NCBI GenBank assembly: GCA_927353735.1
Contig: CAKMIA010000002.1
Span: 62,001-126,000, forward strand
Origin: an uncultured Veillonellaceae bacterium
Lineage (GTDB): Bacteria; Bacillota; Negativicutes; Veillonellales; Dialisteraceae
DNA length: 64,000 bases
Direction of reading: 5' to 3'
The notes beneath the pieces are model-generated. The model saw only the letters and a list, made by a program, of their open reading frames with translations, was not told the DNA's origin and searched no databases. Below, piece after piece: positions 59,853 to 61,748 of the stretch. Numbering within the stretch: position 1 is the stretch's first letter; the number at the start of each line of letters is the position of its first letter. The position numbers were made by a program, and so were the translations under genes.

Positions 59853-61748
59853 ATGGAAATTTATAAAGCGAGGGAAATGGGATTCTGCTACGGCGTGCGC
59901 CGGGCGATGAAGCTTGCCATGGACACGGCGGCGTCGGGAAAGCCGGCGGCCACGCTGGGGCCGCTCATCCACAATCCGCAGGTGGTGACCCGGCTTGCGG
60001 CGCAGGGCGTGCCGGCTCTGTCCGATTTGTCAGAATTTCATGATAAAATTGTCATTATCCGCTCGCATGGTGTGGGGCCTTCGTGCTATAATGATATCAA
60101 GTGCAAAAATCTGGCCTTGGTAGATGCTACCTGCCCTTTCGTCATGCGGAATCAGCAGATCACAAAGGAGCTCGTAGCAGAAGGACATCAGGTTGTGCTC
60201 ATCGGTGAAAAAAATCATCCTGAAATGAAGAGTGTCGCAGAGTGGGCGAGAGGCCGGTCCTGGCTGATCGAATCCCTGGACGATGTGGCAGCGCTTCCCC
60301 ATATGGCAGAAGCACACATTGTAATTCAAACGACTTTCTCGGAAACTCTTGCGGAAGAGCTGATCGCAGCTGTTTCAGAAAAGGCTGATAAGGTGGAGGT
60401 CCACAAGACGATCTGCCGCGCGACGTCGGACCGGCAGCATGCTGCAAGGGAACTGGCGAAGCAGATGGATGTCATGATCGTCATCGGCGGGCATAACAGC
60501 GCCAACACGACCCGGCTTGCAGAAGTGTGCCGGGAAGAAGGTGCGGTGACCTATCACATTGAAACGGCGGCGGAGCTCCGTCCCACATGGTTTCACCACC
60601 AGGACAAGGTTGGCATCACCGCCGGTGCTTCCACACCGGACTGGATCATAGAGGAGGTAGTTTGTATTATGGAAGACATGAGTAAGCTGTTGGAATCGGA
60701 AGACATCAATCTTGATGTGAAGAAAGGCAGCGTTGTTAACGGCAAGGTGGTAGAGGTATTCGACAACAAGGCATACATCTCCTTCGGCTACAAGACCGAA
60801 GCGATTCTGCCCGTACATGAATACGCTTATCCGGTGCCGGAATCCCTGAAAGACGTACTGAAAGTCGGCGATGAACTCCGCGTACAGGTCATCAACGCCA
60901 TCCGCGAAGACAGCCCGATTTACGTATCCAAGATCAAAGTCGATCGTCTCGCTGACTGGGACATCGTAGAAGAAGCATTTGAAAAGAACGAAGCTGTCGA
61001 ATGCGAAGGCGTGGAAGCCATCAAAGTCGGCCTGCTCGTTCAGATCAAATCCCTGCGCGGCTTCATTCCGCTGTCTCAGGGCGATCTCCGCTTCGTTCAT
61101 TCCCTGGCTAACCTCGTTGGCCAGACCTTCCAGGCCAAGATTCTGGAAGTCGACCGCGCAAAGAACCGTCTCGTTCTTTCCCGCAAGGCTGTACTGGAAG
61201 AAGCTCGCGACAGCGAACTGGACGTACTGGAAACCGCTTATCAGAACGGCGAAGTGCTGCAGGGCATCGTAAAGAAGATCATGCCGTACGGCGCATTCGT
61301 CAATGTCAACGGCGTGGAAGGCCTGCTCCACATTTCCGATATTTCCTGGAAGAAGATCGGCAAAGTGGAAGACGTTCTCCAGCCTGAACAGGAAATCGAC
61401 GTCAAGATCAAATCCTTCGACAAGGAAAAACAGAGAATTTCCTTCTCTCACAAGGAATGCCTGCCGGATCCGTGGGAAACTTCCATCCATGAACATGCCA
61501 TTGATGACGTGGTAGAAGCCAAGGTCGTCAAGGTTCTGGAATTCGGCGTGATCGTTGAACTGGAAGACGGCCTGACCGGTCTGCTCCACATCAATGAAAT
61601 GACCCGCGACCACAACCGCAAACCGGGCGACATCTGCGCTCTGGGCGATGTAATCAAAGTCCGTATCATCGGCATTGATGAAAACAGAAAGAGAATCAGC
61701 TTCTCCCTCGTAGAAGCCGCTTCTCACGAAGCAGCGGAAGAAGAATAA
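59853..61748 (+). CDS. ispH: 4-hydroxy-3-methylbut-2-enyl diphosphate reductase fused to S1 RNA-binding domains
   Basis: A 631-residue fusion. Residues 1-280 are IspH, the last enzyme of the MEP isoprenoid path, with [4Fe-4S] cysteines in FCYGVRRA (Cys12), VDATCPFV and KTICRATSDRQ, and IRSHGVGP and GGHNSANT for substrate. Residues about 290-620 are four S1 repeats (for example GYKTEAILP, GFIPLSQGD, GAFVNVNGVEGLLHISD, GVIVELEDGLTGLLHINE) like ribosomal protein S1. Such fusions are known in Clostridia and Negativicutes. Codon use is visibly more GAA/CTG/GTA-biased in the S1 half. An in-frame ATG at 60669 with a strong ribosome site could make S1 alone. Confidence 0.95.
   Translation: MEIYKAREMGFCYGVRRAMKLAMDTAASGKPAATLGPLIHNPQVVTRLAAQGVPALSDLSEFHDKIVIIRSHGVGPSCYNDIKCKNLALVDATCPFVMRNQQITKELVAEGHQVVLIGEKNHPEMKSVAEWARGRSWLIESLDDVAALPHMAEAHIVIQTTFSETLAEELIAAVSEKADKVEVHKTICRATSDRQHAARELAKQMDVMIVIGGHNSANTTRLAEVCREEGAVTYHIETAAELRPTWFHHQDKVGITAGASTPDWIIEEVVCIMEDMSKLLESEDINLDVKKGSVVNGKVVEVFDNKAYISFGYKTEAILPVHEYAYPVPESLKDVLKVGDELRVQVINAIREDSPIYVSKIKVDRLADWDIVEEAFEKNEAVECEGVEAIKVGLLVQIKSLRGFIPLSQGDLRFVHSLANLVGQTFQAKILEVDRAKNRLVLSRKAVLEEARDSELDVLETAYQNGEVLQGIVKKIMPYGAFVNVNGVEGLLHISDISWKKIGKVEDVLQPEQEIDVKIKSFDKEKQRISFSHKECLPDPWETSIHEHAIDDVVEAKVVKVLEFGVIVELEDGLTGLLHINEMTRDHNRKPGDICALGDVIKVRIIGIDENRKRISFSLVEAASHEAAEEE
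60084..60092 (+). promoter_or_regulatory. Possible internal promoter inside ispH
   Basis: TGCTATAAT, an extended -10 box matching those of this genome, inside the coding region and 577 bases ahead of the internal S1 start. Confidence 0.35.
60651..60671 (+). promoter_or_regulatory. Internal ribosome binding site and start for a separate S1 protein
   Basis: GAGGAGG (60651-60657) and an in-frame ATG at 60669, 11 bases apart, exactly at the IspH/S1 junction; translation would give a 359-residue S1 protein starting MEDMSKLLESEDINLDVKKG. Confidence 0.5.

Follow-up and report, generated by a model that had tools for sequence, protein, structure and literature searches.

A conserved Shine-Dalgarno motif and start codon within fused ispH-rpsA genes of Bacillota, predicted to give free ribosomal protein S1

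The fused ispH-rpsA gene and the site at its domain junction

The window analysed here is a stretch of 64,000 nucleotides from an uncultured Veillonellaceae bacterium (assembly GCA_927353735.1, 1.77 Mb, 94.2% complete). On its forward strand lies a single open reading frame that joins an IspH (LytB) part to a ribosomal protein S1. This 631-codon frame scores 657.3 bits against the NCBI model for the bifunctional IspH/S1 protein (NF000907; cut-off 624) and thus belongs to that fusion family. The fusion itself is a known architecture (NF000907; PMC4746011): an IspH-RPS1 “Rosetta stone” fusion has been described for 447 proteins, essentially all of them from anaerobes, in a paper whose text leaves its role open (PMC4746011). 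In that paper, as in the NCBI name, the same architecture counts as one bifunctional protein. The assembly contains one full match to the fusion; two further matches, in open frames of 706 and 169 amino acids, are confined to short S1-domain stretches, and neither a second ispH nor a second full rpsA was found in what is covered by this 94.2% complete assembly. The features of the locus are as follows:

59853..61748, + strand: fused ispH-rpsA open reading frame, 631 aa; the sole ispH and sole full rpsA found in the assembly
59853..60668, + strand: IspH (LytB) part, residues 1-272; PF02401 matches residues 3-273
60084..60092, + strand: TGCTATAAT, candidate extended -10 box; TGY TAT AAT in 16/16 loci, families f1 and f3 only
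60622..60639, + strand: hairpin CCGGTG-CTTCCA-CACCGG, arms 60622-60627 and 60634-60639; covariation at the wobble pair 258_3:261_3
60651..60657, + strand: putative internal Shine-Dalgarno GAGGAGG, codons 267-269 (Glu-Glu-Val); direct reading, conservation, third-base scan and tree
60669..60671, + strand: putative internal start codon ATG, residue 273; ATG or GTG at 272 or 273 in 234/236 fused loci
60669..61748, + strand: predicted product of the internal start, a free ribosomal protein S1 of 359 aa that holds all four S1 domains (PF00575, four stretches)

An earlier note on this DNA had pointed to a GAGGAGG at the junction of the two domains, with an in-frame ATG 11 bases on, and a direct reading of the sequence bears this out: the motif at 60651-60657 is followed after 11 bases by the ATG at 60669-60671, in the same frame as the 631-codon ORF. 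Reading from this ATG yields residues 273-631, i.e., 359 residues with the N-terminus MEDMSKLLESEDIN. The complementary anti-Shine-Dalgarno CACCTCCTT is present in the 16S rRNA of a family member (G002, the one of two members searched that yielded a 16S), from which it was taken because a 16S search of the bacterium's own assembly found none. In the window AGGAGG occurs 70 times on both strands, 27 of these with an ATG or GTG 4-13 nt downstream, and the spacing of 11 nt in this gene is long, most AGGAGG/ATG pairs of the window being 5-8 nt apart. The pair is not outstanding within the window alone; the decisive evidence is comparative.

Codon use was likewise said to change here toward that of highly expressed genes, and it does: measured against the organism's own EF-Tu, codon adaptation goes from 0.327 in residues 1-272 to 0.633 in residues 273-631, rising at about residues 270-300. 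Among 234 fused genes, 162 have the stronger codon bias in their S1 half, a step that would fit a higher output of S1 and is no proof of it. The note's further suggestion, that the cell could make far more S1 than IspH, has less support than the internal start itself: the codon step agrees with it, but the 11-nt spacing exceeds the 5-8 nt usual in the window. Separate from this step is a drop in GC content from the 62% with which ispH begins to 46% at about 60040, which sets off a stretch inside ispH (60040-60240) and comes earlier than the domain border.

Conservation of the site in fused genes

Matches were found in 12/12 genomes of the family, 61/61 of the order, 197/200 of the class and 286/299 of the phylum, and in 109/121 sampled genomes of a Bacilli-like class (that of G237). 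From part of these matching genomes we analysed 319 distinct loci, comprising 236 fused genes, 63 IspH genes without a nearby S1 gene and 20 unfused loci with S1 near. At the phylum level (286 matching genomes) we examined 30 loci (5 of them duplicates), 60 stretches and 30 further loci, and 50 loci came from the 109 matching genomes of the Bacilli-like sample. The 63 control IspH genes (15 from the phylum level and 48 from the Bacilli-like sample) are those for which the stretch read showed no S1 gene. The 20 unfused loci include 16 with an S1 gene overlapping ispH, 3 with a separate S1 start and one (L251) whose label reflects an assembly gap, since its linker holds a run of N. Sixteen duplicate junctions were removed, as were 11 loci lacking an IspH match (L002, L003, L046, L048 and L169-L175). 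The loci analysed do not include that of genome G014 (C40:57943-59846), where a fused gene is broken in its S1 part (two overlapping matches and a TAA), through either an assembly error or a true break. As the loci are related, counts out of 236 are not independent trials; in a non-redundant set of 121 loci AGGAGG is present in 111 and any variant of it in 119.

At the position of the motif, AGGAGG is found in 226/236 distinct fused loci, or 234/236 if AGGGGG and GGGAGG are counted. The underlying codons hardly vary in their third base. At residue 267, Glu is encoded by GAG in 130 loci and by GAA in one, Lys by AAG in 86 and never by AAA, and Gln by CAG in 15 and never by CAA; at residue 268, Glu is GAG in 230/231 loci. 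The median GAG share of the fused genes is only 0.26, and GAG and AAG at the site are thus held against these genes' bias to GAA and AAA. Whereas the residue before the second Glu varies (Glu, Lys, Gln and a few Arg, with Val or Ala in the next codon), the RNA motif barely does. A scan of third-base constraint relative to each gene's own codon use (594 columns, 234 loci) singles out residues 268 (z = 26.4) and 267 (z = 22.6), against 11.1 for the next column, and on a FastTree tree of the IspH domain the third base changes once at each of the two positions, as against 14-60 times at 23 other shared Glu/Lys/Gln columns. Among the control IspH genes, AGGAGG occurs in 1/63, and the second Glu codon is GAG in 7/54 and GAA in 47/54. 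Conservation in the other fused genes thus far exceeds what the Glu-Glu-Val codons demand, the point on which the earlier note had staked its internal start, and its proposal of a start able to release S1 is strongly supported.

The start codon follows the same pattern. In fused loci an ATG or GTG lies 8 or 11 nt past the motif, and residue 273 is Met in 219 of the 236, Val in 11, Leu in 5 and Thr in one. The Val codon is GTG in 10 of the 11, and the single locus with GTA has ATG at 272; more generally, loci in which 273 is neither ATG nor GTG have an ATG one codon earlier, except for L118 and L294, which are also the sole two fused loci without the motif. ATG or GTG at 272 or 273 is accordingly present in 234/236 fused loci. 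None of the 63 IspH genes without a nearby S1 gene and none of the 3 whose S1 gene is separate has such a codon; they encode Leu or Ile at this residue. The fused genes thus combine a Shine-Dalgarno motif and start codon inside a longer ORF with conservation beyond the amino-acid sequence, as expected of an internal in-frame start.

The two exceptions indicate that the fusion can live without an internal site. L118, the lone exception inside the class among the matches listed, is fused with neither a Shine-Dalgarno (AAT GAA GTC) nor an ATG (TTG), and L294, which has AGASTSPEQIEEV at the seam, is possibly an independent fusion. In the Bacilli-like sample, two loci (L297 and L298) are ispH-S1 fusions that carry AAGGAGG followed by an ATG after 8 nt; in this they differ from the other 48 loci. 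Five loci of family f18 (L129, L131, L143, L161 and L165) have a Met-repeat linker after the internal start (e.g., METMESLL, MENMENMES), with several candidate starts in a row.

It could be argued that the peptide itself, IIEEV...M, is needed by IspH or is a relic, the purines merely following from it. The peptide is indeed well conserved, and the Met could be a helix residue; however, GAG and AAG are retained against the GAA/AAA bias, with the Lys, Glu and Gln codons nearly all ending in AG, and IspH proteins without a nearby S1 gene manage with Leu or Ile for the Met and mostly GAA for the second Glu. A constraint at the protein level is therefore extremely improbable as the explanation. Instead, a site kept nearly letter for letter across the phylum strongly suggests, as far as genome comparison can tell, that the cell also makes S1 alone from the middle of the gene.

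Split loci and signals around the predicted internal start

The 16 loci in which ispH and S1 are overlapping genes comprise 13 of f14, one family of the class, and 3 others. They keep AGGAGG or GGGAGG, with the ATG or GTG of S1 9-10 nt downstream in another frame; the S1 ORF, of 353-389 aa, shares its first 13-37 nt with the end of ispH. In overlapping gene pairs generally, the Shine-Dalgarno and start of the downstream gene lie within the upstream gene. The split loci share this form, whereas the fused loci differ in that the frames coincide and S1 is nested in frame. On the IspH tree the split loci nest within fused clades, with mixed support values. In the three loci where S1 starts elsewhere (L217, L265 and L266), the motif at the seam position is gone. 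Thus the start of S1 persists after the fusion has split, whereas the motif disappears once S1 starts elsewhere. This pattern is the strongest argument that the purpose of the motif is to start S1. The conserved product would then seem to be free S1, with the fusion as an option.

The same loci bear on the idea that the motif is a pause or folding signal, with anti-Shine-Dalgarno pairing slowing the ribosome so that IspH folds before S1 and no initiation taking place. Such a signal would account for the placing of the motif exactly at the domain seam of fused genes. Yet it leaves the start codon unexplained, given an ATG or GTG at a fixed distance and a Val that is always GTG unless an ATG lies one codon upstream; moreover, S1 of unfused genes starts from the site in a different frame, and IspH genes without a nearby S1 gene lack it. 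We consider a pause signal very unlikely. An internal Shine-Dalgarno can also stimulate a programmed frameshift, as in dnaX, and here it might join or separate the two frames, the more so as AAAAAG lies a few bases past the motif in many split genes. However, the fused genes need no frameshift, and the A-run is missing from split genes such as L151, L153 and L156, which retain a start codon. With no slippery run kept, this candidate was rejected, and its probability is close to nil.

Beyond the motif and start codon of the proposed internal initiation, we looked at RNA structure. The hairpin (stem of 6 bp, loop of 6 nt) spans codons 257-263, which encode the conserved IspH peptide AGASTPD, and ends 11 nt upstream of GAGGAGG. 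Most of its pairs are dictated by the amino acids. The inner wobble pair 258_3:261_3 is Watson-Crick in 139/236 loci against 66.8 expected within GC strata, and ranks top of 13,700 pairs (z 10.4; next 6.7). Pairing in the 121 non-redundant loci was also set against shuffled and slid partners: 82.9% of cells in the stem are paired versus 75.6 +/- 1.0 when shuffled, with a covariation score of 0.176 versus 0.071 in shuffles. The inner pair shows no clear covariation in the 63 unlinked IspH genes (23 versus 18.7 expected). The outer pair, 257_3:262_3, was set aside: its z of 4.9 is inside the noise of the GC-stratified all-pairs scan (down to -6.3), and it covaries also in the 63 unlinked IspH genes (33 versus 19.6), so the claim is limited to the inner pair. 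Sister-pair contrasts are mixed, with 9 and 7 double Watson-Crick changes at the hairpin pairs, 0-2 at five controls and 6 at a sixth. Between 59700 and 61000 no Rfam match lies above its gathering score, the only match being a sub-threshold snoRNA on the other strand. Folding in 40-nt windows is weakest at -30 to +39 around the start (mean of 233 loci), but synonymous shuffles fold nearly as weakly (mean z 0.2 and 0.4), and the weakness is hence mostly set by the amino acids; it was not retained as independent evidence of selection, nor does it form the main evidence. That the hairpin keeps the Shine-Dalgarno site open is a guess.

The earlier note further proposed an internal extended -10 box at 60084, whose motif is present and is kept as TGY TAT AAT in all 16 loci of f1 and f3, that is, in this family and one sister family only. 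If it acts as a promoter within ispH, free S1 might come mainly from a separate transcript, again by way of the internal start. In the same IspH parts TAT makes up 46/75 Tyr codons and AAT 113/154 Asn codons, figures that speak for the box, though few invariant Tyr or Asn columns are available for the comparison. Against it, a -35 box was looked for at this candidate and not found, and families f2 and f4, which have other residues here, lack the motif, although the translation site persists in them. We judge a separate transcript as the main source of free S1 to be unlikely, if clearly less so than the readings set aside above.

A proposed nested S1 gene and its meaning

Very probably, on the strength of these comparisons, the ispH-rpsA gene has two translation starts and specifies both the 631-residue fusion and a free 359-residue S1. 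Ribosomes starting at 59853 would make the fusion; others would bind the Shine-Dalgarno within codons 267-269, which sits between the short upstream hairpin and the weakly folded stretch at the start, and would begin at the ATG at 60669 to make free S1. We infer initiation at this ATG and production of both proteins, of which free S1 would be the more needed. A broader proposal, which we hold to be evenly balanced between right and wrong, is that IspH-S1 of Bacillota is a nested two-gene unit with free S1 as its conserved product, in which small indels turn a fusion into overlapping genes or back without loss of the S1 start, and the hairpin is a control element tuning S1 output.

The fusion of C. 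thermocellum has been purified from E. coli and is not reported to have given an S1-only product (PMC4746011); with the His tag at the N-terminus, such a product would have been lost. A term search of the text of that paper found no mention of an internal start (PMC4746011), and a literature search among open-licence papers found no prior description of one in ispH-rpsA.

Internal in-frame starts that give a shorter second protein are known from infB, clpB, cheA and mrcB (PMC11005335). In these genes within genes a second start with its own Shine-Dalgarno likewise yields a C-terminal product from one frame (PMC11005335), and the ispH-rpsA start is supported by the comparisons as one of this kind. 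Its setting is unusual, being phylum-wide and interchangeable with overlapping genes. Unlike in the known cases, the shorter product is predicted to be a complete ribosomal protein with a function of its own, released from an enzyme to which it is unrelated, and the site persists in most of a phylum whether the genes are fused or overlapping. Gamma-proteobacterial rpsA is autoregulated by S1 and starts without a canonical Shine-Dalgarno, with a specific fold (PMC10931766). The candidate hairpin would likewise place structured RNA beside the S1 start of ispH-rpsA, which differs in having a near-perfect Shine-Dalgarno and a hairpin of only 6 bp. Bacillus and other low-GC Gram-positives can do without S1 (PMC10931766).

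The IspH-S1 fusion has so far been taken as a sign of a physical tie between isoprenoid synthesis and translation. Should the gene also give free S1, IspH and S1 need not be stoichiometric, hundreds of anaerobes would have a separate ribosomal protein that databases miss, and the notion of IspH as a ribosome-bound sensor would need a second look. The locus would then be a clear example of a fusion in which the inner gene has retained its start, so that the two proteins can be adjusted apart.
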